Source of the DNA: Flavobacteriales bacterium
GTDB lineage: Bacteria; Bacteroidota; Bacteroidia; Flavobacteriales_C; GCA-002722245
DNA length: 64,000 bases
Direction of reading: 5' to 3'
NCBI GenBank assembly: GCA_023251075.1
Contig: JAHEZM010000002.1
Coordinates: forward strand, 1 to 64,000
Shown here: positions 9,902 through 45,397 of the stretch, piece by piece
How positions within the stretch are numbered: position 1 is the stretch's first letter
How the letters are laid out: each line of letters opens with the position of its first letter
The notes under the pieces: generated by a model
Told to the model about the DNA's origin: nothing
What the model saw: only the letters and a program-made list of their open reading frames with translations
Databases searched by the model: none
Program-made: the position numbers and the translations under genes

Positions 9902-9926
9902 AATCCCTCCGATTTTCGGAGGGATT
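9902..9926 (-). terminator. Terminator of the second DUF1573 gene
   Basis: A perfect 10-bp GC-rich stem (AATCCCTCCG with CGGAGGGATT) closes a 5-base loop. On the minus strand it is followed by a T-rich stretch. It lies 50 nt past the stop of the upstream paralogue. Confidence 0.8.
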
Positions 9927-9975
9927 CATATTGTAAGTGTAAGTTATAAACTGGAAATGTTGAATTGGAAGATTT

Positions 9976-10425: not shown

Positions 10426-10502
10426 TTTTTTTGGTTTTTATTGGTTCTGAAATAATTTGTTTCAAACCTTGTACCAAGATAACAATAGAAATAAAGGGGC
10501 GG

Positions 10503-10519
10503 TGTTAACGACTTGTTAA
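10503..10519 (-). promoter_or_regulatory. Tandem TTAACA-N5-TTAACA motif upstream of DUF1573 gene 2
   Basis: The minus strand carries TTAACA twice at an 11-bp period. The surrounding bases match the motif upstream of paralogue 1 at 21 of 23 positions (the two differ in the spacer). No comparable copy is seen before the third paralogue. Confidence 0.5.
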
Positions 10520-10608
10520 TGTTTTATTTCTCTTTACAGTAAAGGGATGTGCAGAATTTAATCTTCTGTTTTGAGAACTTTGTTAACGAAGCGATAAAAG
10601 AGAGAATA

Positions 10609-11043: not shown

Positions 11044-11147
11044 TAACCGAATTTTATCGCAAGCTAATAAAGAATTGGGAAAAATGCTACAGTTTTTATT
11101 CACATCAAACATTGAATTATAGTCGCAATTTACTTCAAACATTTCCT

Positions 11148-11155
11148 TATTTTTG
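11148..11155 (+). promoter_or_regulatory. -7 element of the valS promoter
   Basis: TATTTTTG matches TAnnTTTG exactly. Transcription would start near 11160, leaving about 15 nt before the ATG at 11175. No good -33 TTTG is seen at the right distance. The 131-bp region also serves the divergent DUF1573 gene. Confidence 0.5.
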
Positions 11156-11174
11156 CCCATCAAATTTTTTCGGC

Positions 11175-24799: not shown

Positions 24800-25849
24800 C
24801 TACCATTTTATTTTTTTCAATGCTTCGTAATTTATTACGGTAACTTCACTTCCTTTAATATTTAAAAAGCCATCTTCTTTAAATTCTGTAAGTGTTCGTG
24901 TTACGGTTTCTGTAGAGGTTCCTACCATACTGGCTAAGTCGTTTCGAGGAATAGAAATAGAGAAACTTTTTTCGTTTTCTTTTTTGTATTTATCGTGCAA
25001 TTCGATTAAGGCATCTGCAATTCTTTTGCGAACGGTGTTGTAGGCCATATTGAGCAATTGCTTTTCTTTATCCAGAATATTTCCAGAAAGCATTTTAATG
25101 AATTGATGTGCAACATCTCTGTTTTTTCTGAGGAGATTTAAAAAATCTTCACGTGGAATTTTCAGTACTTCAGAATCTTCCATAGCCGTTGCTGTATCGA
25201 TATAATCTTTGTCTTCAAGTATTGAGAGATAGCCAATAAAATCACCTTCTTTGTACAATCCGGTAATGAATTCTTTACCATCGTTATTCATTACAGAAGT
25301 TTTTATTTTTCCTTTACTCACGAAATAAACACCACTAGGGTAATCACCCTGGGTAAACAAAGTATCTTTCTTTTTGAGAGGTTTTATTTTTTTGTTTTCT
25401 GATAATTTATTGAGTTCTTCCATTCCTCTTGCCGCATCAATAAATTGATTAATGTTGGAGGATTTACTAGAAATTAATTTGCTTTTATTTAATCTTCGTT
25501 CGATAGTATTTAGCAAATCCATTTCTTCAAATGGTTTAGTTAAATAATCATCAGCACCTAAATTCATCCCTTTTCTGAAATCGCTTTTTTCTGTTTTAGC
25601 AGTTAAGAAAATAAAAGGAATACCAGCGGTTTCTATATCTTTTCCCAACATATATAAAACGCCGTAGCCATCTAATTCTGGCATCATAATATCGCAAATA
25701 ATTAGATCGGGTTTTTCGCTTTTTGCTTTTTCAACACCTCGTTTTCCATTTTCGGCGCTTACTACAGTGTAGTTAGACAATTCTAAAATTTCCTGAATGT
25801 TTTCACGTACTTCGGTGTTGTCTTCAATGATTAATATTTTATTATTCAT
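24800..25849 (-). CDS. Response regulator: receiver + cNMP-binding-like + Crp-type HTH
   Basis: This 349-residue regulator fuses a receiver domain (1-120; IIEDN, phospho-acceptor Asp53 in ICDIMMPELDG, Thr83 and Lys85 in LTAKTE) to a Crp/FNR body. The body is a cNMP-binding jelly roll (about 155-245, FTQGDYPSGVYFVSKGKIK) and a winged HTH (about 265-345) with recognition helix TSTETVTRTLTEF. The Glu and Arg of that helix are the Crp/FNR residues that read TGA-N6-TCA. The cAMP-binding Arg of Crp is missing (EDKDYIDTATA) and there are no FNR iron-sulfur cysteines, so phosphorylation is the likely input. It is 3 nt downstream of the kinase gene. Matching boxes occur before the kinase, ccoI, ccoS and others. 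Confidence 0.9.
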   Translation of the reverse strand: MNNKILIIEDNTEVRENIQEILELSNYTVVSAENGKRGVEKAKSEKPDLIICDIMMPELDGYGVLYMLGKDIETAGIPFIFLTAKTEKSDFRKGMNLGADDYLTKPFEEMDLLNTIERRLNKSKLISSKSSNINQFIDAARGMEELNKLSENKKIKPLKKKDTLFTQGDYPSGVYFVSKGKIKTSVMNNDGKEFITGLYKEGDFIGYLSILEDKDYIDTATAMEDSEVLKIPREDFLNLLRKNRDVAHQFIKMLSGNILDKEKQLLNMAYNTVRKRIADALIELHDKYKKENEKSFSISIPRNDLASMVGTSTETVTRTLTEFKEDGFLNIKGSEVTVINYEALKKIKW

Positions 25850-25852
25850 AGC

Positions 25853-27376
25853 TTATAATTTTTGATTGGGTAAATGAATTAAGAACGTGCTTCCTTCTCC
25901 TTCGGTACTGGCGAAATGAATTTCACCGCCCATTAAATCCACATATTTTTTCACGATGTTTAGTCCTAATCCTGTTCCCTCAATGTTAGTAGAGTTTTTC
26001 GCTCTGAACAATCGCTCGAACATATGTTTTTGGTCTTCGGCAGGTATTCCAATTCCCTGATCTTTTACTTCTATTTTAATTAGTTCAGATTCACAACTAC
26101 AGCGTAAAAAAATACTTGAGTTTGCGTTGGAATATTTAATGGCATTCGAAAGTAAATTGTTTACAATATTGCGCAACATGTTTTTATCGAGAATAACTTC
26201 TTCTTGTCCTTTGTATTCGAATTTAATTTTTTGATTTTCTTTGGTGACTTGTTGAATTTCCTCTACAGAAATTTTAAGTAAATCTTTTAAATTCAAAGCT
26301 TCAGGGTTACATTCCGTTTTTCCTTCTTCTAACTTGTCTAACGACAGGAAGTCATTTAAAATACTGGTTAAATGGTGTACAGAGCTTTTTATTCTGTTCA
26401 CATGTTTTTGTCGTTTTTCATGATCTTTTTCCTCTTTATATTTATCAATAAGCGATACTGAAGAAAGAACAGTGCTGAGGGGTGTTCTGAATTCATGAGA
26501 GGCCATTGAAACAAATCGAGATTTTAATTCATTCAATTGCTTTTCTTTTTCGAGAGCGTTGAGCATTTCTTGCTCTGTTTTTTTCTGTTTGGTGATATTT
26601 CTTTCTACCACCAATATGTTTTCAACGCTTCCATTTTCTTCTATTAAAGGTACAGCATCAACCACATAGAAATTTTTTCTAAGTTCAAATTCAACACTTC
26701 CTTTTTGACCTTTTAGAACATTATGTAATAAGGCTTCAACCTCTTCTTTTATTTCGTTGGGAAGTCGGTCGATGTATTTGGTTCCAATTAATTTATTGCC
26801 GCTGATGCCCAATTTCCGAAGTTCTTTTCCTTCAGCTAAAATGTAGCGTAATTCTTTGTCGAAAACACTAATAATACCATCAGGAAAATTTTGAGCAATA
26901 GCGCTATGCAGTCTTTCACTAACACGTAATTCTTCTGTTCTTTTTTTTACAGTTTCTTCAAGATTTTGATTGAGTGTTTTTAATTCTGTTTCTAATTTTT
27001 TTCTTTCAGTAATGTCCGTAATTAAACCCATCACAAAAGTTTCATTATCTCTTTTGAAATAGTTCAAACTAATTTCAACAGGAAATTCTTCTCCATTTTT
27101 TTTGCATCCTTTAAGATCAATTCCTTGTCCCATCGATCTTTGTTTGGGTTTATGAATATATCCATCTCTTTGTGTAACATGACTAGTTCTTAGTTTTTTG
27201 GGCAGAAGAATTTCGATGGTTTTTCCCAGTAATTCTTCTTTGTTATAACCAAAGAGTTGTTCTAAACGAGGGTTTACCAGTATGATCTCACCTTTTTGAT
27301 TGGTTACAATGAGACCTTCCACGGCACTGTCGAAAAGGTATCTATATATTTCGCTATTTTCTTGCATTAGATTCAT
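25853..27376 (-). CDS. PAS-domain sensor histidine kinase
   Basis: This 507-residue kinase has no membrane helix. An N-terminal PAS domain (about 10-130) resembles the FixL sensor (ILLPKKLRTSHVTQRDGYI, RSMGQGIDLKG, FPVEISLNYF), but the FixL proximal His before DGY is Arg, so haem binding is doubtful. A coiled coil and a second PAS-like domain (about 155-275) follow. The HisKA motif MASHEFRTPLS has phospho-acceptor His294; the ATPase has NNLLSNAIKYS, KDQGIGIP and GTGLGLNIV. The partner is the Crp-like regulator 3 nt downstream. A Crp/FNR-type box and -7 element precede it. Given that promoter, the ATG at 27367 (MQENSEIYRYLF) may be the true start. Confidence 0.9.
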   Translation of the reverse strand: MNLMQENSEIYRYLFDSAVEGLIVTNQKGEIILVNPRLEQLFGYNKEELLGKTIEILLPKKLRTSHVTQRDGYIHKPKQRSMGQGIDLKGCKKNGEEFPVEISLNYFKRDNETFVMGLITDITERKKLETELKTLNQNLEETVKKRTEELRVSERLHSAIAQNFPDGIISVFDKELRYILAEGKELRKLGISGNKLIGTKYIDRLPNEIKEEVEALLHNVLKGQKGSVEFELRKNFYVVDAVPLIEENGSVENILVVERNITKQKKTEQEMLNALEKEKQLNELKSRFVSMASHEFRTPLSTVLSSVSLIDKYKEEKDHEKRQKHVNRIKSSVHHLTSILNDFLSLDKLEEGKTECNPEALNLKDLLKISVEEIQQVTKENQKIKFEYKGQEEVILDKNMLRNIVNNLLSNAIKYSNANSSIFLRCSCESELIKIEVKDQGIGIPAEDQKHMFERLFRAKNSTNIEGTGLGLNIVKKYVDLMGGEIHFASTEGEGSTFLIHLPNQKL

Positions 27377-27377
27377 A

Positions 27378-27421
27378 CAAAGTTGCTTTATTCATACATT
27401 TAAAATACTGATATAAATCAA
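27378..27421 (-). promoter_or_regulatory. Kinase promoter with Crp/FNR-type box
   Basis: The box (27408-27421) reads TTGATTTATATCAG on this strand. The -7 element CAACTTTG (27378-27385) differs from consensus at one base. Box centre to the end of the -7 element is 36.5 nt, the same as at ccoI and ccoS, a class II activator position. Confidence 0.6.
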
Positions 27422-27478: not shown

Positions 27479-28297
27479 ATGCAAAAGATACTCATCCCAA
27501 CCGATTTTTCAGATGCTGCAAGAGATGCATTGCGTTATGCGGCTAAATATATTGATAGTGGCACGGCTGATTTTTATTTATTAAATGCTTACGATCAGCC
27601 TTCGAATACAGATATGTTGATTTCTATTGTAGATATTTTGAAGGAGGAGTCGGAAAAAGCTTTGAAAGAAGAAGTGGAATTTTGCAAAAAAACTTTACAT
27701 ATCAAAGAAGAAAAATTGCATTTAATAAGTGTGTTGGGTTCAGTGGAAGAAGCAATTCAAAAGGCGCTTAAAACACAAAATATTGATGTGGTAGTAATGG
27801 GTACAAAGGGGGCGAGTGGGGTGAAGGAAATTTTGGTGGGTACTAACACCGTTCATGTAATTTCAAAGATTGATGTTCCTGTTATTGCAGTGCCTAAATT
27901 TAATGAAAATATATCTTTAGATGTTATTGCTATAGCTATTGACAATGAAGGTTTAGCTAATGAGCATATTTTAGATAGGGTAAAAGAAATTGCAGAATTG
28001 AATGCTGCGAATATCGTTCTGCTTAATGTTTTAAAAAACGATGAAGAACCTTTTTGTTTTAATGTTCAGCAACAAAATAGATTGAGAAAATATTTCGGTA
28101 GAATGGATATTGAATGTGTGGCGTTGAAGGGAGCTGATGTAGAGAAAGAAATCAATGAATTTGTTTGGAATAATGATATAGATATGTTGGTTATTTTTCC
28201 CAGAAAAATGTCCTTACTTCAAAAATTATTTGGCAAAAAAAGTATTTCCCGAAAAATAAATTTTCATTCTAAAGTTCCGGTATTTAGCTTGGGGTGA
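27479..28297 (+). CDS. Universal stress protein, two UspA domains
   Basis: The start at ATG 27479 (MQKILIPTDFSDAARDALRY) is the family N-terminus; the longer frame adds six residues overlapping the predicted -7 element. The 272-residue protein has two Usp domains. The first ends with the ATP-binding pattern VMGTKGASGVKEILVGTNT; the second (about 145-272) is diverged and lacks that glycine-rich loop (VIFPRKMSLLQKLFGKKS). Usp proteins are cytosolic and induced by starvation or low oxygen. The gene is divergent from the kinase/regulator pair and shares their Crp/FNR-type box, which suggests control by that system (inference). Confidence 0.9.
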   Translation: MQKILIPTDFSDAARDALRYAAKYIDSGTADFYLLNAYDQPSNTDMLISIVDILKEESEKALKEEVEFCKKTLHIKEEKLHLISVLGSVEEAIQKALKTQNIDVVVMGTKGASGVKEILVGTNTVHVISKIDVPVIAVPKFNENISLDVIAIAIDNEGLANEHILDRVKEIAELNAANIVLLNVLKNDEEPFCFNVQQQNRLRKYFGRMDIECVALKGADVEKEINEFVWNNDIDMLVIFPRKMSLLQKLFGKKSISRKINFHSKVPVFSLG

Positions 28298-28312: not shown

Positions 28313-29152
28313 TCACGAATTTTCGGGATATCCAATTCGTAAACTCAATACAGGTTGATTTCTTTTCTTAATGATTTCTTCTGCTATACTTCCTGAAATG
28401 ATATGAGCCAATCCTGTTCTTCCATGAGTTTCCATTACTAATAATTCAGGATTTAATTCTTCACAGTAATGCTGAATTCCTTCTTCCACATTTTCTGCCG
28501 TGATGATATCGCAAACGAAGTTTTTAAATCCAGTACTTTTTGCGAATTCAGCCATAGCTGTTTTTACATTCTTCGTAGTTTCAAAATGTGCCCTGGTAAT
28601 TATTTTTACAAAATGAAGTTCAGGATGAAAAACATCCATCAATGATTTTATTTTTTGGAAGGCATTTTTACTTTCTCCTTCAAAATTGCTGCAGAACACT
28701 AATGTGTTTAATGCAAAATCAGGAGTAGCTTGTTTTACTATGATTACGGGGTAATCGGTTAATCGCAGTAATTTTTCTGTATTGCTTCCAAAAACGAAAT
28801 CATTTAATTTGTTATGGCCATGACTCCCCATTACAATTAAATCCACTTTTTGTAAATCAGCGTAATGGTGAATTCCTTTGATGGTAGAGTTATAATGAAC
28901 ATGATCAATGATTTTAACTCCCTCTAAATTTTTAAGTTGAAGTATTTCAAGAAATTGCTGATTTATTTTTTTAGTGGCTTCAATTCCTGTTTCAGTTTTT
29001 AAAAAATCCTCTAAGTGGTGTGCCGCTATAGGATAATCAACGATATGCAATAAATGTACTTCAGCATTGGCTTTTCTGGCTATAGCCGCGGCTACTCCAA
29101 GTGCATTTAAAGAGAAGGTGGAAAAATCGGTAGGGACTAGTATTTTTTTCAT
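28313..29152 (-). CDS. Universal stress protein, two UspA domains
   Basis: The start at ATG 29152 (MKKILVPTDFSTFSLNALGV) is the family N-terminus and gives 279 residues. The first Usp domain ends with VMGSHGHNKLNDFVFGSNT and the second with VMETHGRTGLAHIISGSIA. Both retain the G-2x-G-9x-G-S/T ATP-binding pattern, unlike the second half of its neighbour. It is convergent with that neighbour (15 nt between stops). Upstream is a palindromic repeat element that separates it from the ccoI control region, so its own promoter is unclear. It probably belongs to the same stress or microaerobic response. Confidence 0.9.
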   Translation of the reverse strand: MKKILVPTDFSTFSLNALGVAAAIARKANAEVHLLHIVDYPIAAHHLEDFLKTETGIEATKKINQQFLEILQLKNLEGVKIIDHVHYNSTIKGIHHYADLQKVDLIVMGSHGHNKLNDFVFGSNTEKLLRLTDYPVIIVKQATPDFALNTLVFCSNFEGESKNAFQKIKSLMDVFHPELHFVKIITRAHFETTKNVKTAMAEFAKSTGFKNFVCDIITAENVEEGIQHYCEELNPELLVMETHGRTGLAHIISGSIAEEIIKKRNQPVLSLRIGYPENS

Positions 29153-29173: not shown

Positions 29174-29255
29174 CAATAGTTCCTTCGTTCCTCAGGATGA
29201 CAACCAGAGCTTGGATGAGCATTGTCTGTCATCCTGAGGAACGAAGGAACTATTG
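29174..29255. repeat. Palindromic repeat element, copy 1
   Basis: A perfect 29-bp inverted repeat (29174-29202 with 29227-29255, core CATCCTGAGGAACGAAGG) encloses a 24-base loop. The second copy is at 38020-38107; the loops are also related (both contain GATGAGC). No reading frame or transposase is present. It lies between divergent genes. Confidence 0.9.
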
Positions 29256-29366: not shown

Positions 29367-31739
29367 ATGACACCTGTTTTATGTTTTCATTGTGGAGATG
29401 TGGTAAAGGATAATTCTTTTGTTGCTGAAAGCAAATCATTTTGTTGCATTGGGTGTGAAAATGTATATGTTCTACTCACCCAATCAGGTTTAAATAATTA
29501 CTACTCTTTAGAGAAAAATCCCGGTTTTTCTCCTCTGCTTAAAGAAGATGCTTTTGCGTTTTTAGATTTACCAGCGGCGGTAGATAAATTATTGGATTTC
29601 AAAAGTGAGGAGATAGAAAAAGTTCGTTTGGTATTGCCTAAAATACACTGTAGCTCTTGTATTTATTTGCTAGAGAATTTAAGTAAAATTAAGGAGGGTG
29701 TTTTAACGGTGCATGTAAATTACTCTTTAAAGGAAGCTTCTGTTACTTATGATCCTTCAAAAGTTTCATTGAAAGAGATGGCCTTGTTGCTTACTAAAAT
29801 TGGATATGAACCTACTTTTAAAAGGAAATCGGCAGATGCTACACCTAACAACAAATACAAAAAGCAATTGTGGAAAATTGGGGTGGCTGGTTTTTGTTTT
29901 GGAAATATTATGTTGTTGAGTTTTCCTGAATATTTAGCGATTTCTGAAATATCTGAAAATTTTAAATTGCTATTTCGTTATTTGAATATGTTACTGATTA
30001 TTCCTGTTCTTTTTTATTCGGGTACAGAATATTTTGTGAACAGCATCAATGCTTTAAAAATTCGAAAAATAAGTATTGACGTTCCTTTGGCAATAGGCAT
30101 AGTTGCACTTTTTGGAAGAAGTATTTATGAAGTGTTGAGCGCCACAGGTTCGGGCTATTTTGATACATTGGCGGGTTTAATATTTTTGCTTTTAACAGGG
30201 AGGTATTTTCAAAATAAAGTATTCGATGAATTTTCTTTTGAGCGTGAATTGTACTCGTATTTTCCTTTGTCGGTGGTGAAAAAACACAACCACAATGAAC
30301 AAAGAGTATTGATTGAAGATTTGCAACCAGGAGATCATATCACCATTAAAAATGAAGAAATTATTCCGTGTGATGCGCAACTAATTTCCGAAAGTATCAC
30401 GGCTGATTTGAGCTTCATAACGGGTGAAGCTTTGCCCAAAGTATTTGCAAGAGGAAGTAGGATTTATGCGGGAAGTAAAGTGGTGGGAAAACCTGGTGAA
30501 TTTATGGTTTTACAAAAAACAGATAAAAGTTATTTAGCCCGTTTGTGGGATGAAGTAAAATCGAGTGGTGGGGTGGATGTACTGGAATCTCTAACAGGAT
30601 CTTTGAGTGGCTATTTTACCACTTTGGTTTTGTTGGTGGGTACTGCTGCTTTTTCATTTTATTATTTTAACGATAATGTTTCGGGGGCTTTTAATGCACT
30701 TACTGCGGTGTTGTTAATTACTTGTCCGTGTGCCTCTGCATTATCTGCTCCTATGGCTTTAGGTAATGCCATTCGTTTGTTGGCGCGTAAAGGATTTTAT
30801 TTAAAAAATGCTTTTGTGGTAGAGAAAATTGCTCGGATCAAAAATGTGGTTTTAGATAAAACAGGAACAATCACTGTTGCCGAAAAAGTAGAGGTTTCCT
30901 ATCATGGTGAAACATTGAATCAGAAAGAAGAGTCTTTCATTTTTTCTGCTGTGAATTCCAGCAATCATCCCTTAAGCAGAATACTTTCCGAAAAATTAAA
31001 AAGCACTTCAGATCTCTTGCTTGTTGATTTTTATGAGGAACTAAAAGGGAGTGGTATCAAAGCTTTGGTGGGTGATGCAGAAGTGAAGGTGGGTTCTGCA
31101 AAATTTACTTCTGCTGAAATTGAAACGAAGGTGGATGGATACGGATCATGGGTACATGTAATGATTAATAAAAAATATAAAGGATATTATTTTATAGAAA
31201 GTAAATATCGGGATGGTTTATGGGAAATGTTGAATGCCCTAAAAAGAAATTCAAATATTTATTTACTGAGTGGTGATCACAGGGATGAGAATCCGAAACT
31301 AGAAGAAGTTTTTGGGTCTCATATGGTGTTTAATCAGAGCCCGGCCGATAAAAAATATTTTGTTCAATCTTTGCATAACAGCGCACCAACAATGATGGTA
31401 GGTGATGGAGTTAATGATGGAGTTGCTTTAAAAGTAAGTGATGTGGGCATTGCGGTTTCCGATAATGTAAATTCATTTTATCCATCGGCACAGGTGATTT
31501 TAGATGGAAAAATGTTCAATGAATTGCCGCAAATGTTGTTGTATTCTAAAAGAGTTTTACGAGTGATTTATGTCTGTTTAAGTTTGTCGTTTTTATACAA
31601 TATTGTAGGAATGTATTTTGCTTGTAGTTTACAGGTAACACCTTTGTTTGCAGCAGTATTAATGCCAATAAGTTCTATTACAGTTGTTTCATTGGCGGTG
31701 GGAGGAACGTATTTGGCTTACCGTAGAATTTTCTTGTAG
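29367..31739 (+). CDS. ccoI: Copper-type P1B ATPase for cbb3 oxidase maturation
   Basis: The start at ATG 29367 (MTPVLCFHCGDVV) puts the CxxC of the N-terminal metal-binding region at the beginning, as in the family; the longer frame runs into the promoter. The 790-residue pump has FCCIGCENVY, an HMA-like domain with IHCSSCIYLL (about residue 100), the actuator loop TGEALP, the ion motif TCPCASALSAP in a membrane helix, the phosphorylation site DKTGT and the hinge MVGDGVNDGVAL (usually GDGINDAPAL). It should supply copper for CcoN. It is 3 kb from the oxidase genes with two unrelated genes between, but shares their promoter box. Confidence 0.93.
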   Translation: MTPVLCFHCGDVVKDNSFVAESKSFCCIGCENVYVLLTQSGLNNYYSLEKNPGFSPLLKEDAFAFLDLPAAVDKLLDFKSEEIEKVRLVLPKIHCSSCIYLLENLSKIKEGVLTVHVNYSLKEASVTYDPSKVSLKEMALLLTKIGYEPTFKRKSADATPNNKYKKQLWKIGVAGFCFGNIMLLSFPEYLAISEISENFKLLFRYLNMLLIIPVLFYSGTEYFVNSINALKIRKISIDVPLAIGIVALFGRSIYEVLSATGSGYFDTLAGLIFLLLTGRYFQNKVFDEFSFERELYSYFPLSVVKKHNHNEQRVLIEDLQPGDHITIKNEEIIPCDAQLISESITADLSFITGEALPKVFARGSRIYAGSKVVGKPGEFMVLQKTDKSYLARLWDEVKSSGGVDVLESLTGSLSGYFTTLVLLVGTAAFSFYYFNDNVSGAFNALTAVLLITCPCASALSAPMALGNAIRLLARKGFYLKNAFVVEKIARIKNVVLDKTGTITVAEKVEVSYHGETLNQKEESFIFSAVNSSNHPLSRILSEKLKSTSDLLLVDFYEELKGSGIKALVGDAEVKVGSAKFTSAEIETKVDGYGSWVHVMINKKYKGYYFIESKYRDGLWEMLNALKRNSNIYLLSGDHRDENPKLEEVFGSHMVFNQSPADKKYFVQSLHNSAPTMMVGDGVNDGVALKVSDVGIAVSDNVNSFYPSAQVILDGKMFNELPQMLLYSKRVLRVIYVCLSLSFLYNIVGMYFACSLQVTPLFAAVLMPISSITVVSLAVGGTYLAYRRIFL

Positions 31740-34554: not shown

Positions 34555-34620
34555 CTGATTTTTATCATATTCCTCTTTGACTCCCATCAAAACTGATTTA
34601 AACCCATCCCTATACTTTTA
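34555..34620 (+). promoter_or_regulatory. ccoS-ccoNO promoter with two Crp/FNR-type boxes
   Basis: Distal box CTGATTTTTATCAT (34555-34568) and proximal box TTGACTCCCATCAA (34577-34590) lie 22 bp apart, centre to centre. The -7 candidate TACTTTTA (34613-34620) ends 58.5 and 36.5 nt from the two centres. The following bases extend a 13-mer (TACTTTTACCACA) shared with the MBL gene promoter. Confidence 0.65.
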
Positions 34621-34637
34621 CCACACAAAGTATTGAT

Positions 34638-34799
34638 ATGAGTGTTTTAATTATTTTAATTCTGTTGAGTTTATCGATTGCCGCTCTATTCGTAGGGTTT
34701 TATTATTGGGCAATTAAAACCGATCAGTTTGAAGATGATTATACTCCCTCTGTTCGAATACTCTTCGATGATGAACTAATCAAAAAACAATCCGAGTAA
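34638..34799 (+). CDS. ccoS: cbb3 oxidase assembly protein CcoS
   Basis: This 53-residue single-span membrane protein begins MSVLIILILLSLSIAALFVG and then has FYYWAIKTDQFEDD, the conserved CcoS signature in which the aromatic/Gly segment is followed by QFEDL/D. CcoS is needed to insert haem and copper into CcoN. Its TAA stop overlaps the ccoNO ATG as TAATG, so translation is coupled. It is the first gene of the oxidase operon, about 13-18 nt downstream of the predicted transcription start. No Shine-Dalgarno sequence is seen, as is normal for the phylum. Confidence 0.9.
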   Translation: MSVLIILILLSLSIAALFVGFYYWAIKTDQFEDDYTPSVRILFDDELIKKQSE

Positions 34800-36988
34800 T
34801 GGAAATGCAATTAGAAAAATTTTCCTACGACAACAAGATTGTACGCAACTTTTTGTATGCTACAGCAATCTGGGGACTAGTAGGATTTTTAGTGGGCCTT
34901 ATTTTGGCCATTGAAATGTTTTGGCCTGCTATTTCAGGTGAACTTCCATTTTTATCTTTTGGCCGATTGCGACCGCTGCATACCAATGCCGTGATTTTTG
35001 CATTCGTGGGTAACGGCATTTTTGCCGGTGTTTATTATTCGCTCCAACGTTTGTGTAAAACAAGAATGTTTAGTGATGTTTTAGGTAAAATTCATTTTTG
35101 GGGATGGCAACTCATCATCGTTTCTGCTGCTGTTACCATCCCATTTGGTTACACCAGCGGTAAAGAATATGCCGAATTAGAATGGCCGATAGATATTGCC
35201 ATTGCCTTAATTTGGGTAGTGTTTGGATGGAACATGATTGGTACTATTTTAAAAAGAAGAGTGAAACATTTGTATGTTGCTATTTGGTTTTATATCGCTT
35301 CGTGGATTACAGTAACGATGTTGCATTTGGTGAATTCATTTGCCATGCCGGTTACTTTTTTAAAATCATATTCATGGTATGCGGGTGTGCAAGATGCATT
35401 GGTACAATGGTGGTACGGGCACAATGCCGTTGCATTTTTTCTTACCACAACATACCTGGGATTGATGTACTACTTTATACCCAAAGCTTCAGGCCGGCCC
35501 GTGTTCTCTTATAGATTATCTATCATTCACTTTTGGGCGCTTATCTTCATCTATATTTGGGCCGGCCCTCATCACTTGCTATATACTGCCTTGCCCGATT
35601 GGGCACAATCTCTCGGTACTGTATTTTCCATTATGTTGATTGCTCCGTCGTGGGGTGGTATGTTGAATGGCTTACTCACTTTACGTGGTGCTTGGGATAA
35701 AGTGCGTGATGATGTTACCTTGAAATTTATGGTGGTTGCTTTAACTGCTTACGGTATGGCTACTTTCGAAGGTCCGATGTTGTCGTTGAAATCTTTGAAC
35801 GCATTGAGTCACTATACCGACTGGACTATTGCACACGTGCACATTGGTGCTTTAGGGTGGAATGGTTGTTTGACTTTTGCCATTTTCTATTTCTTAATTC
35901 CTAAAATGTTTAGTGCAAAATTGTATTCTCAAAAATTAGCCAACTGGCATTTTTGGTTGGCTACTTTAGGTATTTTGTTTTATGCTGTTCCAATGTATTG
36001 GGCCGGTATTGTACAAAATCAAATGTGGAGAGAATTCAATGCAGATGGTACTTTAACCAATCAAAATTTTTTAGATACCGTAACGCAAATTATTCCAATG
36101 TATGAGTTGCGTGCCATTGGTGGTTTCATTTTTATTGCTGGTGTAGTGTTGATGTTTTACAACTTAATTAAAACCATTAAGAGTGGAAAATTAATTGAAA
36201 ATGAAGAAGCAGAAGCTTATTCATTAGCCAAAACAAATGTTAAGCATGAGAAAGAACACTGGCATCGTTGGATTGAAAAACGTCCGGTTCAAATGTTGGT
36301 TTTGAGTTTAATTATGGTGTTGATTGGTGGTGCTTTAGAAATGGTTCCAACCTTTCTGGTGAAATCAAATGTTCCAACAATTACGAGTGTTCATCCTTAC
36401 ACTCCGCTGGAACTAGAAGGTAGGGATATCTATATTCGTGAAGGATGTTACAACTGCCATTCGCAAATGATTCGCCCCTTCCGTTGGGAAACAGAAAGAT
36501 ATGGCGACTATTCCAAAGCAGGTGAATTTGTGTACGATCATCCACATCAATGGGGATCGAAAAGAACGGGGCCAGATTTAGCACGTGAAGGTGTAAAAAC
36601 AGGTAGGTTGTATAAATCCAACGATTGGCATTTTAATCACTTGTTGCTACCCGATTCAGTATCGAACGGATCTATCATGCCTCGTTATCCTTGGTTGTTA
36701 GCGAAATTGAGTACGGGCGATTTAGATAAAAAAATATCTGCGATGAGGGTGTTGGGTGTTCCTTATTCTGAAGGATATGAAAATAAAGCATTGGCTGATT
36801 TGCAAATACAAGCTAAAGAAGTTGCAAAACCTTTGTACGACAATATTGACGCTTTAGTGATTTCTGATGAAACATATGATAAAGTAAAGTCGGGAGAAAT
36901 GAAATTTGAAGAAACAGAAATGGTTGCGTTGATTGCATACTTGCAACGATTGGGAACTGATATTTATCCAAAACAAGCTAAAAAATAA
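34799..36988 (+). CDS. ccoNO: cbb3-type cytochrome oxidase, fused subunits I and II
   Basis: This 729-residue protein joins CcoN (about 1-465, at least 12 membrane helices) to CcoO (about 495-729). The CcoN part holds haem and copper ligand regions: RPLHTNAVIFAFVG, VQWWYGHNAVAFFLTT, WAGPHHLLYTALPDW and TIAHVHIGALGW. The CcoO part has one membrane helix (about residues 497-520) and one c-type haem site, EGCYNCHSQMI, with RPFRWETERYGDYSKAGEF downstream. The complex reduces oxygen to water at the inner membrane with high affinity. The fusion is usual in Bacteroidota. It is coupled to ccoS and followed after 3 nt by ccoQ. Confidence 0.97.
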   Translation: MEMQLEKFSYDNKIVRNFLYATAIWGLVGFLVGLILAIEMFWPAISGELPFLSFGRLRPLHTNAVIFAFVGNGIFAGVYYSLQRLCKTRMFSDVLGKIHFWGWQLIIVSAAVTIPFGYTSGKEYAELEWPIDIAIALIWVVFGWNMIGTILKRRVKHLYVAIWFYIASWITVTMLHLVNSFAMPVTFLKSYSWYAGVQDALVQWWYGHNAVAFFLTTTYLGLMYYFIPKASGRPVFSYRLSIIHFWALIFIYIWAGPHHLLYTALPDWAQSLGTVFSIMLIAPSWGGMLNGLLTLRGAWDKVRDDVTLKFMVVALTAYGMATFEGPMLSLKSLNALSHYTDWTIAHVHIGALGWNGCLTFAIFYFLIPKMFSAKLYSQKLANWHFWLATLGILFYAVPMYWAGIVQNQMWREFNADGTLTNQNFLDTVTQIIPMYELRAIGGFIFIAGVVLMFYNLIKTIKSGKLIENEEAEAYSLAKTNVKHEKEHWHRWIEKRPVQMLVLSLIMVLIGGALEMVPTFLVKSNVPTITSVHPYTPLELEGRDIYIREGCYNCHSQMIRPFRWETERYGDYSKAGEFVYDHPHQWGSKRTGPDLAREGVKTGRLYKSNDWHFNHLLLPDSVSNGSIMPRYPWLLAKLSTGDLDKKISAMRVLGVPYSEGYENKALADLQIQAKEVAKPLYDNIDALVISDETYDKVKSGEMKFEETEMVALIAYLQRLGTDIYPKQAKK

Positions 36989-36991: not shown

Positions 36992-37174
36992 ATGTTGAAG
37001 TTTATAAAAGGTCATTTGGATTCGATTTCTGGGATTGAAATCTATCCCATTATTTCACTACTTATATTCTTCACTTTTTTTACGGTGATGTTTGTTTGGG
37101 TAATGAAATCAGATAAAAAATATTTAGAAGAAATGAGTGAAATGCCTTTCGATAATAAAAACGATATGCTATGA
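36992..37174 (+). CDS. ccoQ: cbb3 oxidase small subunit CcoQ
   Basis: This 60-residue protein has one membrane helix (IYPIISLLIFFTFFTVMFVW) and a charged tail with the conserved-type pattern MKSDKKYLEEMSEMPFD. CcoQ stabilises the assembled oxidase. The call rests on size, topology, the tail motif and position between ccoNO and ccoP. Its stop overlaps the ccoP start (ATGA), which indicates coupling. Confidence 0.85.
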   Translation: MLKFIKGHLDSISGIEIYPIISLLIFFTFFTVMFVWVMKSDKKYLEEMSEMPFDNKNDML

Positions 37175-38013
37175 TAACAACAATATTTTTACAAGCAAAT
37201 CCGGTAGAACCAGTGGCTGTTTCTACTGATTTATTAACTCATCCTATTTTTAAAGATCCACTTTTGCTGGCTTTACTTTCTGTAATTTCTGTACTGCTAA
37301 TTTGTATGGTGATTTTATGGAATACCTATAAGGGAATAACCAGAAGTTTGTATCCCGAAGCAATTAAGGAAAAAACAGTGAAAGAAAAATCGGTGATCGC
37401 TTCTCTAACTGCCTATGTTCCTGTTGAAGAAGAGCACACCATTTTAATGGATCATGAGTACGATGGAATTCGTGAGCTGGATAACAACTTACCACCTTGG
37501 TGGGTTTATATGTTCTACGTTTGTGTTGTTTTTGCTGTAGTTTATATGGTGTATTTCCACATGATGGATGGACCGGGATCTGAACAAGAATACAAAAATG
37601 AACTGGCTGAATTTAAAGCGCAAAAAGAGGCGGAAATTAAAACTGCTGATGTGAAAGTAGTCGATGAAAATTCAGTAACTCTTTTAAGTGATGCAGGTTC
37701 TGTTTCACAAGGTAAATCTTTGTTTGAAGGAAATTGCCAAACTTGTCATGGTGCCGGAGGTAAAGGTTTAAATGGTCCGAATTTAACCGATGAATATTGG
37801 TTGTATGGAGGAAGTGTAAAAAATATTTTTAACACGATTAATCAAGGTAAAATTGAAAAAGGTATGCCGGGTTGGAGCACTTTGGGTGGAAATAAAATTC
37901 AATCAATTATTAGTTATATCAAATCATTGAAACCAGCTGAAGGAGGAAAAGCTCCGCAAGGAGAAAAATATGTGGAGTTTACAGACACTTTAAAAACAGA
38001 TACAGTGAAATAA
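37171..38013 (+). CDS. ccoP: cbb3 oxidase cytochrome c subunit III
   Basis: This 280-residue protein has two membrane helices (about 27-50 and 111-130) and a periplasmic cytochrome c domain. The FixP N-terminal signature is present (EYDGIRELDNNLPPWWVYMF). Only one haem site is found, FEGNCQTCHGAGGKGLNGPN, with the axial Met expected in KGMPGWS. Proteobacterial CcoP has two haem sites, so this is the short mono-haem type. CcoP passes electrons from soluble or membrane cytochromes to CcoO. A palindromic repeat element follows directly after the stop and separates it from ccoG. Confidence 0.93.
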   Translation: MITTIFLQANPVEPVAVSTDLLTHPIFKDPLLLALLSVISVLLICMVILWNTYKGITRSLYPEAIKEKTVKEKSVIASLTAYVPVEEEHTILMDHEYDGIRELDNNLPPWWVYMFYVCVVFAVVYMVYFHMMDGPGSEQEYKNELAEFKAQKEAEIKTADVKVVDENSVTLLSDAGSVSQGKSLFEGNCQTCHGAGGKGLNGPNLTDEYWLYGGSVKNIFNTINQGKIEKGMPGWSTLGGNKIQSIISYIKSLKPAEGGKAPQGEKYVEFTDTLKTDTVK

Positions 38014-38019
38014 CGAGTA

Positions 38020-38107
38020 GGACAATAGTTCCTTCGTTCCTCAGGATGACAACCACAGTACAGATGAGCTTAGTTTGTCATCCTGAGGAACGAAGGAACT
38101 ATTGTCC
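38020..38107. repeat. Palindromic repeat element, copy 2
   Basis: A perfect 33-bp inverted repeat (38020-38052 with 38075-38107) encloses 22 bases. The stem is the same as copy 1 with two extra pairs on each side. It lies 7 nt after ccoP and 14 nt before ccoG, inside what is otherwise one operon, where its RNA hairpin could lower downstream expression or protect the upstream message. Confidence 0.92.
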
Positions 38108-38121
38108 TTTACTTAAAACTT

Positions 38122-39549
38122 ATGGAACCAAAAGAAACATATTCCGATGATTTTAGAGGGCATCTCTCTACGGTGGATGAGAAGGGAAAAAGAATATGGA
38201 TTTATCCCAAGGCAGTTAGCGGAAAATTCTACAAATACCGAAAGATTGTAAGTTATGTTTTACTGGCTTTCCTATTCGGAATGCCGCATATTTATTTGCA
38301 TGGTGAACCTTTCTTTTTGTTTGATATAATCCACCGTAAGTTTATTTTATTCGGACAAGTTTTTTTTCCACAAGATTTTCATTTGTTCGTATTTGGAATG
38401 ATTGCTTTCATCTTATTTATTGTTCTTTTTACTGTGGTTTTTGGTAGAGTTTTTTGTGGTTGGATTTGTCCGCAAACTATTTTTCTGGAAATGGTTTTCA
38501 GAAGAATAGAAAGATGGATTGAAGGGGATTATATAGAGCAAAAAAAACTCCATAAAGCAAATTGGAATGAAGAGAATAAACTTCTGAAAAAAGTATCCAA
38601 GCATATTATTTTCTTTGGTGTTTCTTATGTTGTTGCCAATACTTTTTTAGCCTATATTATTGGTTCCAAAGCTTTATTTGAAATTCAAACTGATAATCCT
38701 TTATCACATATCGGTGGCTTAGTGGCAATCACTTTATTTAGTTTGGCATTCTATGGCGTATTTGCTTTTTTTCGCGAGCAGGTTTGTACCAATGTTTGTC
38801 CTTATGGAAGGTTTCAAGGTGTTCTTTTAGATAGCAATACCGTGGTGGTTGCCTACGATCATAAACGTGGAGAACCTCGAGAGAAAAATGTGAAAGAGAG
38901 ATCTTCTTCTGCCGGAAGTTGTATTGATTGTCATCAATGCGTTTTAGTTTGTCCTACGGGAATCGATATTAGAAATGGAACTCAATTAGAGTGTGTGAAT
39001 TGTACAGCATGTATCGATGCTTGTGATGATGTAATGGAGAAAATTCATGCCCCTAAAGGATTGATAAAGTATGCTTCCGAAAAACAAATTTCTAACAATG
39101 AAAAATTTGTTTTTACCAATAGAATGAAAGCCTATACCGTGGTATTATGTTTAATCATTGTGATATTTAATGTGTTGATGTTATTGCGTGGAAGTATTGA
39201 AACTACTGTGTTGCGCGCACGCGGACAAAATTTCACGATCATGGAAGACGGACGAATTAGTAATTTATACAAGTATAAAATTATCAATAAATCGAATGAT
39301 GAAATGCCTATAAAATTGCAATTGGTAAATATAAAAGGACAAGTGGAAATAATTGGGGTGGGGGATAGTATAATGTTAAAACCCGAACAGAAATTAGAAG
39401 GAATAATGATGATAAAAATTGATTCCACTCAATTGTCGTCAAGAACCAACGGAATAATAATTAATGTGATGAGTGGTGATCATAAATTAGAAGAGGTTTC
39501 TTCTGTATTTATGGCGCCACGTCATCATAAAGCAAGTGATAAAAAATAA
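38122..39549 (+). CDS. ccoG: Cytochrome c oxidase accessory protein CcoG (FixG)
   Basis: This 475-residue membrane protein has about five helices, including a C-terminal one (about 333-352), a polyferredoxin region and an Ig-like C-terminal domain. Cys motifs: GWICPQT, TNVCPYGRFQG, CIDCHQCVLVCP and CVNCTACIDACDD, two ferredoxin-type 4Fe-4S sites. CcoG is thought to reduce Cu(II) for delivery to the oxidase. It is the first gene after the palindromic element and is followed closely by ccoH, so it still belongs to the cbb3 cluster even if the element uncouples expression. Confidence 0.95.
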   Translation: MEPKETYSDDFRGHLSTVDEKGKRIWIYPKAVSGKFYKYRKIVSYVLLAFLFGMPHIYLHGEPFFLFDIIHRKFILFGQVFFPQDFHLFVFGMIAFILFIVLFTVVFGRVFCGWICPQTIFLEMVFRRIERWIEGDYIEQKKLHKANWNEENKLLKKVSKHIIFFGVSYVVANTFLAYIIGSKALFEIQTDNPLSHIGGLVAITLFSLAFYGVFAFFREQVCTNVCPYGRFQGVLLDSNTVVVAYDHKRGEPREKNVKERSSSAGSCIDCHQCVLVCPTGIDIRNGTQLECVNCTACIDACDDVMEKIHAPKGLIKYASEKQISNNEKFVFTNRMKAYTVVLCLIIVIFNVLMLLRGSIETTVLRARGQNFTIMEDGRISNLYKYKIINKSNDEMPIKLQLVNIKGQVEIIGVGDSIMLKPEQKLEGIMMIKIDSTQLSSRTNGIIINVMSGDHKLEEVSSVFMAPRHHKASDKK

Positions 39550-39553
39550 AATT

Positions 39554-39979
39554 ATGCGTATGAATTGGGGATGGAAAATAACAATTGTGTATTCACTTTT
39601 TGTGATTGCCATGGTAAGTGCAGTGATCTTTAGCACTACGTTAGATGTAAATTTAGTAGAAGAAAATTATTACGATAAGGAAGTTGCCTTTCAAAAAGAA
39701 ATTGATCAGAAACAAAATGCAATTAATGATTCGGTGGTGTTTAAAGTGAATGTTTTAAATGATAGTATAGAGTTAAATATTCCTGTTAAAGAGGCGCAAG
39801 GAAAAATTTATTTTGTTCGTGCTGCCGATATTAATAACGACAAAAAATTTGAGTTGAAATTGGTGAACGGAAAACAAAAATTTGCCAAAGAATTATTCAA
39901 ACCAGGAAGCTATGAAATACAGGTGGAGTGGAAGAATAACAACAAAGAATATTATTGGGAAGAAAAAATAACAATTTAA
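39554..39979 (+). CDS. ccoH: cbb3 assembly protein FixH/CcoH
   Basis: The start at ATG 39554 (MRMNWGWKITIVYSLFV) follows the ccoG stop by 4 nt; the longer frame begins at GTG inside ccoG. The 141-residue protein has one N-terminal helix, then DVNLVEENYYDKEVAFQKEI, the FixH hallmark in which a Tyr-Tyr pair precedes a coiled region, and an Ig-like tail. FixH assists assembly of the oxidase, probably with CcoI. The gene ends 1 nt before the next start. Confidence 0.9.
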   Translation: MRMNWGWKITIVYSLFVIAMVSAVIFSTTLDVNLVEENYYDKEVAFQKEIDQKQNAINDSVVFKVNVLNDSIELNIPVKEAQGKIYFVRAADINNDKKFELKLVNGKQKFAKELFKPGSYEIQVEWKNNNKEYYWEEKITI

Positions 39980-39980
39980 A

Positions 39981-40682
39981 ATGGTGATTTATTTTACTGC
40001 CATATTATTAGGTTTAGTTTCTTCTTTGCATTGCGTGGGTATGTGTGGTCCCATTATTATGAATGTTCCTTTTTTACATTTTGAGCGAAGCAAATATTGG
40101 GCAATGGCTACTTATCATTTCAGTAGAATTTTAATTTATTTCTTATTGGGAATATTTTCTGGAAGTATTGGTGCTGCTATATCGATCGCAGGTTTTCAGC
40201 AGTGGCTATCGATAATAGCCGGAGCATTTTTATTGTTACTTTTCTTAATTCCTAAAATCAAAAATATCTTAGAGAAAAAATTGAATTCTCCCGTGAATAA
40301 AATTTATTCCTCTGTGGGTGAATATTTGTTTAAACCTACTTTTTCATCGGTGGCGTTAATGGGATTGGTAAACGGAATTTTACCTTGCGGAATGGTGTAT
40401 GCTGCTTTGATAGCGTCAACGGCGGCAGGTTCTGTAGGAGGTTCGATGTTGTACATGGTGTTTTTCGGATTGGGTACTTTACCGCTATTACTTAGTTGTT
40501 CTGTTGGTATTTCTTTTTTAGGAAATTCATTTAGAAATCGTTTTAGAAAAATTGCGCCTTACGGTACTTTAATCATTGGAATTTTGTTTGTGCTGCGCGG
40601 ATTGAATTTAGGCATTCCTTATGTGAGTCCGCACTTTGAAGAGAAAACAAAAAGGATGGAGTGTTGTCATAAAAAAAAATAG
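39981..40682 (+). CDS. SafE/DsbD-like membrane protein of the cbb3 cluster
   Basis: This 233-residue protein has six predicted helices. The N-terminal SLHCVGMCGPIIM carries the conserved Cys-x3-Cys of the COG2836 (sulfite exporter TauE/SafE-like, DsbD-like) family, and a second signature NGILPCGMVYAALI lies near residue 137. Family members next to cbb3 genes are thought to move copper or reducing power. The C-terminus ends KRMECCHKKK, a possible metal-binding CC-H tail. It overlaps the hemN region closely (hemN starts 1 nt after the stop), so it is within the operon. Confidence 0.85.
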   Translation: MVIYFTAILLGLVSSLHCVGMCGPIIMNVPFLHFERSKYWAMATYHFSRILIYFLLGIFSGSIGAAISIAGFQQWLSIIAGAFLLLLFLIPKIKNILEKKLNSPVNKIYSSVGEYLFKPTFSSVALMGLVNGILPCGMVYAALIASTAAGSVGGSMLYMVFFGLGTLPLLLSCSVGISFLGNSFRNRFRKIAPYGTLIIGILFVLRGLNLGIPYVSPHFEEKTKRMECCHKKK

Positions 40683-40683
40683 C

Positions 40684-42039
40684 ATGAAAAACTTAATACA
40701 AAAATACGACATCGCTTGTCCGCGATATACTTCTTACCCAACAGTTCCTTATTGGGAAAATAATATCACTATAGAAGAGTACAAAAAACAAGTAAAAATT
40801 ACTTTTGATGAAACCAATGATTCTTCCGGAATCAGTTTGTATATCCATCTTCCATTTTGTGAAAGTTTGTGTACTTACTGTGGCTGCAATACCAGAATTA
40901 CGGTAAATCATAAAGTGGAATCTCCTTATATCGATGATGTTTTAAGTGAATGGAATTTATACAAACAGGTTTTTAAAGTGGCACCAAAAATTAAAGAGTT
41001 GCATTTAGGTGGGGGAACTCCCACTTTCTTTTCTGCTAAAAATTTAGCGCAATTAGTCAATGGGATTTTAGAAGGAACAGAAAAAGTTGAAGATCCTAAA
41101 TTTTCTTTTGAAGCACATCCGGCAAATACTACTGATGAGCATTTACAAACATTATTTGATTTAGGATTTAGAAGATTGAGTTTGGGTATTCAGGATTTTG
41201 ATGTGGTGGTGCAGGAAGCCATAAATAGGAAGCAAACAGTGGGAGGGGTGGAGCGCGTAACCACAAGAGCGCGTGAGATGGGCTATACATCTATTTCGTA
41301 TGATGTGATTTATGGTTTGCCATTTCAATCTTCACACAGCGTGCAAGAAACTTTTAGAAAAGTATTGTATTTGCATCCCGATAGAATTTCATTTTACAGT
41401 TATGCACACGTGCCTTGGAAACGCCCGGGGCAACGTCGTTACGATGAAAGTAACTTACCGTCAAAAGAAGCAAAGCGTTCGCTGTATGAAACAGGCAAAG
41501 CGATTTTGAGTGCCAATGGTTATTTGGAAATTGGAATGGATCATTTTGCACTTCCACATGATGAATTGTTTGTGGCAGAAAAGGAGGGAAGGTTGCACCG
41601 AAATTTTATGGGCTATACTGAAGGACAAAATAAATTGTTGATTGGTTTGGGGGTTTCATCAATTGGTGATACCTGGACTTCCTTCGCGCAAAATATTAAG
41701 GATGTGGAAACTTATCAAAAAATAGTTCGTGAAGGTAAATTACCTATAGCGTACGGTCATCATCTCAATGAAGAAGATCTAATGATTCGCCGACATATTT
41801 TAAATATCATGTGCAAGTATCGTACGGAATGGATGCATGAAGATTTGGTGCAAATGCGACAAGATGGAATAATTAAACGTTTGCACGAATTAGCACAAGA
41901 TGAATTAATAGAATTACATCATTATTCTTTTTCTGTAACCAAAAAAGGAAAAATATTTTTGCGTAATATTTGTTTGGCGATGGATTTGCGTTACTGGAGA
42001 AAAATTCCAGAGAAAGATACTTTTAGTAAGGCAGTGTGA
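40684..42039 (+). CDS. hemN: Oxygen-independent coproporphyrinogen III oxidase
   Basis: I choose ATG 40684 (MKNLIQKYDIACPRYTSYPT), the family N-terminus, giving 451 residues; the longer frame starts inside the preceding gene. The radical-SAM cluster motif is CESLCTYCGCN and the SAM-binding glycine stretch is LHLGGGTPTF. The C-terminal HemN domain contains DHFALP and MGYT. The enzyme converts coproporphyrinogen III to protoporphyrinogen IX without oxygen. Its place at the end of the cbb3 cluster fits haem supply for the oxidase under low oxygen. It converges with the DUF3820 gene, leaving only 6 nt between stops. Confidence 0.97.
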   Translation: MKNLIQKYDIACPRYTSYPTVPYWENNITIEEYKKQVKITFDETNDSSGISLYIHLPFCESLCTYCGCNTRITVNHKVESPYIDDVLSEWNLYKQVFKVAPKIKELHLGGGTPTFFSAKNLAQLVNGILEGTEKVEDPKFSFEAHPANTTDEHLQTLFDLGFRRLSLGIQDFDVVVQEAINRKQTVGGVERVTTRAREMGYTSISYDVIYGLPFQSSHSVQETFRKVLYLHPDRISFYSYAHVPWKRPGQRRYDESNLPSKEAKRSLYETGKAILSANGYLEIGMDHFALPHDELFVAEKEGRLHRNFMGYTEGQNKLLIGLGVSSIGDTWTSFAQNIKDVETYQKIVREGKLPIAYGHHLNEEDLMIRRHILNIMCKYRTEWMHEDLVQMRQDGIIKRLHELAQDELIELHHYSFSVTKKGKIFLRNICLAMDLRYWRKIPEKDTFSKAV

Positions 42040-43982: not shown

Positions 43983-45350
43983 CTAAACTTCCACAATATC
44001 CCACAAAGCAGGTATTTCGCAATTCCAGCCATAAGTACTTTCTATTTTTGTTCTCAAGACATCAGCGGCTTGTGCTTCTCCATGTATGATAAAAACTTTT
44101 TGGGGGGTATTTTTAATATTCGACATCCAGTCGATTAATCCTTTTTGATCGGCATGACCACTCAATCCCCGAATTTCATCGATGTGAGCTTTAACTTCAT
44201 AATATTTTCCAAATAATTTTATTTCCGATGCCCCACGTAACAATTGTCTTCCCCTTGTTCCTTCGGCCATATATCCGGCCATTAAAACAGTAGTGCTGGG
44301 ATTGCAGATATAATGTTGTAAATAACTCAAGACTCTACCACCCGTGAGCATACCTGCTCCGGCAATAATTATTTTGGGTGCAGGATTGTGAATAATATTC
44401 AATGATTCTTTGAAGTCTTCGGTGTAAGTAAAACAGTTGCACATTTCTCTGCATTCTTCCGCACTTAGTTTTTGCCATTTTAAATGGTGCTGAAATACCT
44501 TAAGTACATTTCCTCCCATCGGACTATCCATTACCATCATCACCTCCGGAATGAGTTTTTTCTCTTTTAATTTCCACAATAAATACATGAGCAACTGAGT
44601 GCGTTCTACCGCAAAACTAGGAATGATCAAAGTGCCTCCTGCAGTAATAGTATCGTTTACCGTTTTTTGTAAATGTTCTTCAATATTTTCTGCTTGGTGT
44701 AAACGATCTCCGTATGTACTTTCTATAAAAAGCACATCGGCTAGTGCGGGAGCTTGTGGGGGAAACATTATGAAATCTTCTTCGCGGCCAATATCACCGG
44801 AAAAAACCAATGTTTTTCCGTTCACAAAAAGTTCTATGCAGGTAGCTCCTAAAATATGTCCAACATACGTGAATCTTGCGCTGATTCCATCTCCTAATTC
44901 AATGATTTTATCGATTTCAACTGCTTTGAAATGAGGTATAGTTTTTTCTACATCGGCAACAGTATAAAGTGCTTTTGCAGGATGATGTTTGGTGAATTTT
45001 TGTTGGTTGGCACGTTCGGCATCTTCCTCTTGAATTTTAGCACTATCGCGTAAAATAATTTCTGCAATTTCTAAAGTGGGGGCTGTACCGTAAATACTTT
45101 TTTTGAAACCCATATCTACCAATCGAGGAAGAAATCCGGTATGATCCATATGTCCGTGCGTGAGTAAAATACAATCAATTTCATTTGCATTCACTGGTAA
45201 ATATTCCCAGTTTAATTGTCGTATTTTCTTAACTCCCTGAAAGAGTCCGCAATCAATCATTATTTTTTTCTTTTCGGTTTCCACCAAATATTTTGATCCG
45301 GTAACTGTTCCGGCAGCGCCCAGGAAATGCACTCTTATAGAATTATTCAT
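43983..45350 (-). CDS. MBL-fold beta-CASP nuclease-like protein (COG1236/Ysh1)
   Basis: This 455-residue protein has the metallo-beta-lactamase core with zinc motifs LTHGHMDHTGFLP, GHILGATC and FSGDIGREEDF, then a beta-CASP domain (about 210-340) and a C-terminal SGHADQKGLIDW. This order is that of CPSF73-like RNA-processing nucleases. The exact RNA substrate is unknown. A Crp/FNR-type box and a -7 element identical to that of ccoS precede it; the -7 element ends 5 nt before the ATG, predicting a leaderless transcript. It may adjust RNA turnover under low oxygen (inference). Confidence 0.92.
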   Translation of the reverse strand: MNNSIRVHFLGAAGTVTGSKYLVETEKKKIMIDCGLFQGVKKIRQLNWEYLPVNANEIDCILLTHGHMDHTGFLPRLVDMGFKKSIYGTAPTLEIAEIILRDSAKIQEEDAERANQQKFTKHHPAKALYTVADVEKTIPHFKAVEIDKIIELGDGISARFTYVGHILGATCIELFVNGKTLVFSGDIGREEDFIMFPPQAPALADVLFIESTYGDRLHQAENIEEHLQKTVNDTITAGGTLIIPSFAVERTQLLMYLLWKLKEKKLIPEVMMVMDSPMGGNVLKVFQHHLKWQKLSAEECREMCNCFTYTEDFKESLNIIHNPAPKIIIAGAGMLTGGRVLSYLQHYICNPSTTVLMAGYMAEGTRGRQLLRGASEIKLFGKYYEVKAHIDEIRGLSGHADQKGLIDWMSNIKNTPQKVFIIHGEAQAADVLRTKIESTYGWNCEIPALWDIVEV

Positions 45351-45354: not shown

Positions 45355-45397
45355 TAAAAGTATGGGATGGCATGTAAAATGAATTGATAAATATCAG
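45355..45397 (-). promoter_or_regulatory. MBL nuclease promoter with Crp/FNR-type box
   Basis: On the minus strand CTGATATTTATCAA (45384-45397) precedes TACTTTTA (45355-45362); box centre to end of the -7 element is 35.5 nt. The 13-mer TACTTTTACCACA is shared with the ccoS promoter. The same box could also serve the small plus-strand gene at 45465. Confidence 0.6.

Follow-up and report, generated by a model that had tools for sequence, protein, structure and literature searches.

Genes and features at the locus

The window analysed here is the whole 64,000-nucleotide stretch of a Flavobacteriales bacterium contig (JAHEZM010000002.1, positions 1 to 64,000; assembly GCA_023251075.1), and its relevant features are listed in Table 1. 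On the minus strand, a histidine kinase gene lies upstream of a gene for a regulator in which Response_reg, cNMP_binding and HTH_Crp_2 domains are joined in a single protein, and only 3 nt (25850-25852) separate the two. A first-pass annotation, made from the sequence alone, had described the pair as a receiver fused to a Crp/FNR body with a cytosolic PAS kinase just upstream, and the domain searches bear this out: the kinase has two PAS domains and no transmembrane stretch (19-residue Kyte-Doolittle maximum 0.82). The pair adjoins usp genes and a complete cbb3 oxidase cluster that includes a ccoQ-like ORF. Homologues of the beta-CASP hydrolase of the window are divergent to the kinase-regulator pair in two other loci (L035 and L039).

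Other features of the window were recorded. Between usp2 and ccoI, at 29174-29255, CAATAGTTCCTTCGTTCCTCAGGATGACA and its complement form an inverted repeat of 29 bp that is possibly a dispersed repeat. Three adjacent paralogous small secreted-looking proteins with the common pattern YGTIxQxSxPxRxxxFxNTGxxPLxI are encoded at 9351-11193. A comparison with an anti-phage defence library gave nothing beyond weak matches to partial domains.

Table 1. Features of the window around the kinase-regulator pair and the cbb3 cluster.
Feature	Positions	Strand	Basis
REC-cNMP fold-HTH_Crp fusion regulator, 349 aa	24800..25849	-	ORF, Pfam, family alignment, AlphaFold2
HTH_Crp domain, aa 275-347; recognition helix with invariant E314, R318	24809..25027	-	HTH_Crp_2, E 2e-16
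cNMP-fold beta-roll, aa 157-243; cAMP-contact positions lost (Y207, D218)	25121..25381	-	cNMP_binding, E 5e-22
Receiver domain, aa 5-116; D53 (codon 25691-25693), T83, K105	25502..25837	-	Response_reg, E 4e-29
Cytosolic histidine kinase, 507 aa, PAS-PAS-HisKA(H294)-HATPase_c	25853..27376	-	Pfam domains
PAS1, FixL/FG214-type heme-PAS candidate; His66 (codon 27179-27181), Met82	27005..27352	-	Gapless alignment
FNR-type box CTGATATAAATCAA, kinase/usp1 divergent promoter	27408..27421		Motif scan
Universal stress protein Usp1; ORF from 27461, likely start 27479	27479..28297	+	ORF, domains
Universal stress protein Usp2	28313..29152	-	ORF, domains
Box TGATTTTTGTCA 5' of ccoI, centre about 41.5 nt before likely start codon	29320..29331		Motif scan
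ccoI-type copper P-type ATPase; likely start codon 29367	29367..31739	+	Domains
Box TGATTTTTATCA, first of tandem pair 5' of ccoS	34556..34567		Motif scan
Box TGACTCCCATCA, second of tandem pair, exactly 22 bp from first	34578..34589		Motif scan
ccoS-like small membrane protein, 53 aa	34638..34799	+	Sequence
Fused ccoNO, cbb3 oxidase catalytic subunit	34799..36988	+	Domains
ccoP, ccoG, ccoH, DsbD_2-family membrane protein, hemN	37171..42039	+	Domains
beta-CASP/RMMBL metallo-hydrolase	43983..45350	-	Domains
Box TGATAAATATCA, 5' of beta-CASP metallo-hydrolase gene	45385..45396		Motif scan

The fusion regulator

The receiver carries the residues of its superfamily. The acidic pair is E9/D10, D53 and K105 are present in all 41 full-length relatives of the alignment, and the T83 position is Thr or Ser in 40/41. 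Asp53 and Thr83 had been assigned correctly in the first-pass annotation, but Lys85, which it had taken for the active-site lysine, lies two residues after T83 and is kept in 39/41 relatives; the catalytic lysine is the invariant K105. A cysteine directly precedes the phospho-Asp (C52, codon 25694-25696) in 41/41 relatives and might make the receiver redox-sensitive or be a simple inheritance.

In the body of the protein, neither of the CRP residues that contact cAMP is kept. The position of Glu72 is taken by Tyr207 (mostly Tyr across the family) and that of Arg82, which binds the cAMP phosphate, by Asp218 (Asp or Glu in 40/41). The Cys set for a [4Fe-4S] cluster is absent from the window regulator as well; since C52 is its sole Cys, it cannot hold the FNR cluster. 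The loss of the cAMP-contacting Arg and of the FNR cysteines, both noticed earlier, was thus confirmed. The recognition helix (RNDLASMVGTSTETVTRTLTEF in the window protein, REDLAxxVGTATExxIRTLSDF as family consensus) is of the FNR type, with the E314 and R318 of its ExxxR invariant among the 41 relatives. Judged by domains and residues, the regulator would be a member of both the receiver superfamily and the CRP/FNR family.

The AlphaFold2 model, obtained with 41 relatives as input, is mostly confident (mean pLDDT 84.9, pTM 0.56), except for the linker at 124-140, which is poorly defined. The modelled body resembles CRP and FNR structures, which among the matches listed covered the body only and not the fusion. 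As the beta-roll is kept and confidently modelled (pLDDT about 90), and as a non-cAMP ligand could fit into a pocket that has Y207 and an acidic side chain at position 218, the receiver could be only an add-on, with phosphorylation merely tuning a CRP/FNR body that answers another small molecule. We consider this distinctly unlikely: the cAMP-contact positions are lost in 40/41 relatives whereas the receiver active site is invariant, and in the plain FNR relatives of Bacteroidia, which carry a Cys set instead, position 207 is likewise Y and position 218 is occupied by a small residue, so that the beta-roll looks structural. The invariant D53 and K105, the lost cAMP-Arg, the missing Fe-S Cys set and the adjacent kinase argue instead for phosphorylation as the switch that replaces the ligand, as the first-pass annotation had proposed.

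The partner kinase and its PAS1 domain

The best solved match of PAS1 was FG214 (PDB 10JX), followed by FixL and DosP, and its alignment with proven heme PAS domains of three kinds is gapless. FG214 binds heme through His156, as established by mutation, EPR and crystallography (PMC13060918; PDB 10JX, 10JY), and Met172 was the second heme ligand in a dithionite-soaked crystal (PMC13060918). In PAS1, His66 falls at the proximal heme-ligand position of FixL and FG214 (His156 in the latter) and Met82 at that of Met172. The FixL distal Arg220 is absent from the window PAS1, with Ile86 in its place. A reading of PAS1 as a domain without the heme His of FixL was overturned by the gapless alignment.

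Among the alignable partner kinases of the family, the proximal His is found in 25/25 and the Met in 24/25, the remaining kinase having Ile together with the full FixL signature. Most weak PAS homologues of the same genomes are without the His, and in two stronger, non-adjacent homologues its place is taken by Tyr or Gln. A purely structural role thus does not explain the His, although certain other FixL/FG214-like PAS domains encoded elsewhere in the genomes share it. In two Bacteroidia loci, a PAS at or near the fusion gene bears the full FixL signature (heme His and RIIGIGRE): L067 (genome G048), where it is in the partner kinase, and L228 (genome G010). Upstream partner ORFs of six loci (L046, L057, L058, L062, L064 and L065) have no PAS1-type domain, and several paralogous pairs use other sensor types, some of them transmembrane or receiver-type.

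These other sensor types, the missing Arg220, a PAS2 with no assigned ligand and the many ligands that PAS domains bind would suit a kinase responding to a cue other than oxygen (flavin, quinone or another metabolite), in which case the link to cbb3 would reflect general redox control. Such a cue is unlikely in our judgement, given that PAS1 aligns without gaps with solved heme PAS domains of three kinds and that the partner kinases conserve the ligand His and the counterpart of FG214 Met172. PAS1 is likely a heme-based oxygen sensor.

A shared box at the kinase, cco and usp promoters

Every 5-mer palindrome with spacers of 0-12 was searched for in the kinase, cco and usp promoters. A single motif family, TGAY-N4-RTCA, emerged from this unbiased search; it is mostly preceded by A or C and sits at the kinase, ccoI, ccoS-NO and usp promoters. 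Of the target promoters 49/87 had the box, compared with 73/501 of the remaining promoters at these loci (p=8e-16), and it is spacer-specific, alternative spacers staying at a few per cent. It was found before hemN in 1/12 cases and before ccoG in 0/13, both genes being usually operon-internal. Within the window, five of the eight TGAY-N4-RTCA sites fall in the 7.9% of the DNA that is intergenic (p=1.4e-4).

That the kinase promoter carries a box had been noticed in the first-pass annotation and holds for the promoter shared with usp1. The autoregulation deduced from it appears to apply to part of the family: a perfect box is present in 12/32 kinase promoters (p=0.002 versus control promoters) and missing from the others. 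In fusion-bearing genomes, 19/20 unlinked ccoN promoters have the box. Second boxes (at most one mismatch allowed, a pair of two perfect boxes being counted twice) at 40 further ccoN promoters lay at exactly 22 bp in 36 cases, at 23 bp in five and at other offsets of 14-44 in six. The 22-bp spacing could place two dimers stacked on one face of the DNA, two turns apart. Such 22-bp tandem boxes before the ccoS/ccoN operon occur with and without the fusion (window 34556-34589; loci L239-L278).

Two broader proposals were abandoned. A box private to the fusion was rejected, since 16/20 genomes without the fusion carry it before ccoN. A wider regulon cannot be claimed from single-genome scans, since the exact TTGAT-N4-ATCAA gave 15 scattered sites genome-wide and the 12 sites of the stricter MTGAYRNNYRTCAK lay mostly within genes.

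The plain proteins of the fusion-less genomes mostly have CxxC...C motifs and recognition helices such as REDIANIVGTATETVIRLLSEF, similar to that of the fusion, and several fusion-bearing genomes also retain a Cys-rich FNR protein. It is conceivable that another FNR protein of this kind reads the cbb3/usp boxes and that the fusion controls something else. The window genome makes this very improbable. It has four cNMP-fold proteins in all, none of them a Cys-rich FNR protein; two are without a recognisable HTH, and the only other HTH-bearing one has a different recognition helix without the ExxxR reading residues, which leaves the fusion as the only evident box reader. The fusion, moreover, has a matching helix, sits in the cluster and has a box in its own promoter. 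With the same box and a similar helix in fusion-less genomes, the regulon looks old and common to fusion and plain FNR genomes, the fusion differing in its input.

Distribution and linkage to cbb3 oxidase

The first-pass annotation had suggested searching other genomes for the REC-cNBD-HTH_Crp architecture, and full-length relatives were found in 144/296 sampled Bacteroidia genomes. Carriers among the matches listed include Mucilaginibacter, Arcticibacter, Aquimarina, Chitinophaga, Sphingobacterium and Flavobacterium. In a phylum-wide sample, whose number of genomes from other classes is not stated, 44/44 positives were Bacteroidia. Trees with plain CRP/FNR proteins, for which approximate E. 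coli CRP and FNR sequences served as the two outgroups, placed the fusions on one side of a single branch in all bootstrap trees, on a weak backbone; this is consistent with a single origin of the fusion.

The kinase gene is directly upstream of the fusion gene in nearly all of 40 relatives, with gaps mostly of -4 to +15 nt, and cbb3-cluster genes (cco or hemN) are close to the pair in 14/40 relatives and in 6/14 named Bacteroidota contigs. Of the fusion genomes, 113/144 also have ccoN (odds ratio 4.4, p=6.5e-9 over the 296 Bacteroidia genomes, kinship ignored). By hand tally, the fusion and ccoN are 40 kb or less apart in at least 42 genomes, 33 of them within about 12 kb. The cbb3 linkage of the pair recurs across the class Bacteroidia.

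In some genomes (among G053, G045 and G023) there are three or four paralogues of the full-length fusion, certain of them paired with transmembrane or receiver-type kinases; the presence of several paralogues with other kinase types suggests that the family has diversified beyond cbb3.

No paper describing the fusion or its regulon was found in literature outside the subscription journals; earlier censuses of response-regulator architectures may already list the domain order. CRP/FNR homologues of Flavobacteriales and Saprospiraceae MAGs have been assigned to carbon sensing, in a text from which the word 'receiver' is absent (PMC8510549).

Proposed pathway

We propose, with a probability of roughly 0.7, that the pair is a FixL-FixJ-FixK-like oxygen pathway in two proteins that activates cbb3 through the boxes. 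The cbb3 enzyme scavenges oxygen with high affinity, and many Bacteroidia appear to turn it on in this way. The kinase would sense oxygen or redox state through a PAS1 heme held by His66, possibly with Met82 on the opposite face, autophosphorylate at H294 and then phosphorylate the fused receiver by transfer to D53. This modification, in place of cAMP or an Fe-S cluster, would yield an active dimer of the CRP/FNR body able to bind TGAY-N4-RTCA boxes, including the tandem boxes at 22 bp before the ccoS-NO-Q-P operon. Bound there, the dimer would activate the cbb3 oxidase and its copper pump together with the usp genes; some members of the family would also activate their own operon. The architecture, conservation, gene linkage and boxes are read directly from the sequences, and the heme, the phosphotransfer, the DNA binding and the activating direction of regulation are what we infer. 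The first-pass annotation had missed how widespread the family is, along with the likely heme sensor and the cbb3/usp regulon.

If this pathway is correct, phosphorylation can serve as the switch of the FNR fold instead of a ligand or an Fe-S cluster. Low-oxygen control in a large class, on which little was described in the literature found, would gain both a mechanism and a binding site. The box, which recurs across the class and in tandem at exactly 22 bp, can be put to the test at once.

Comparison with known systems

In Bacteroidia, one fixed FNR regulon may be served by two inputs that can replace each other: a Cys-rich FNR protein, and a once-arisen FNR body that traded its cluster for a phospho-receiver under a His/Met heme-PAS kinase. 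We give this generalisation about an even chance. Under it, control of cbb3 by oxygen in much of the class would run via phosphorylation of an FNR-type protein; a description of FNR-family activation by phosphorylation was not found in the literature searched. It would amount to a natural sensor swap, with the same box and the same targets under another input, of use for studies of regulator evolution.

In rhizobia, the FixL-FixJ-FixK2 cascade is spread over three proteins; its FixJ is of the LuxR type, and the signal passes through a transcriptional relay. The present pair resembles it in its candidate heme-PAS kinase, its receiver, its CRP/FNR-type activator and cbb3 as predicted target. It differs in that a single protein combines receiver and FNR body, with no relay step left, in that the window PAS1 is without Arg220 of FixL, and in its output, which is a cNMP fold with HTH_Crp and not the LuxR-type HTH of FixJ/NarL. 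Like hFixL-FxkR of Rhizobium leguminosarum, it would link a low-oxygen kinase to a regulator outside the FixJ pattern, but FxkR is reported to induce a separate FixK gene and is not itself an FNR-type activator (PMC7888657). FG214 is the closest solved relative of PAS1, yet it is an HTH-PAS transcription factor and no kinase, and its distal His175 corresponds to Gly85.

With FNR/ANR and the Cys-rich FNR proteins of Bacteroidia, the fusion shares the fold, a similar recognition helix, the TGA-N6-TCA core box and the predicted target genes, but the Cys-rich proteins have an N-terminal CxxC..C set and further Cys for a putative Fe-S cluster where the fusion has a receiver and no such set. It has the beta-roll, long dimer helix and HTH of CRP, without the cAMP-binding Arg or Glu and without an Arg at the R180 position of the recognition helix. 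Since the LuxR output of FixJ, the distal Arg of FixL, the Cys set of FNR and the cAMP residues of CRP are all missing, the pair is a full member of none of these systems.
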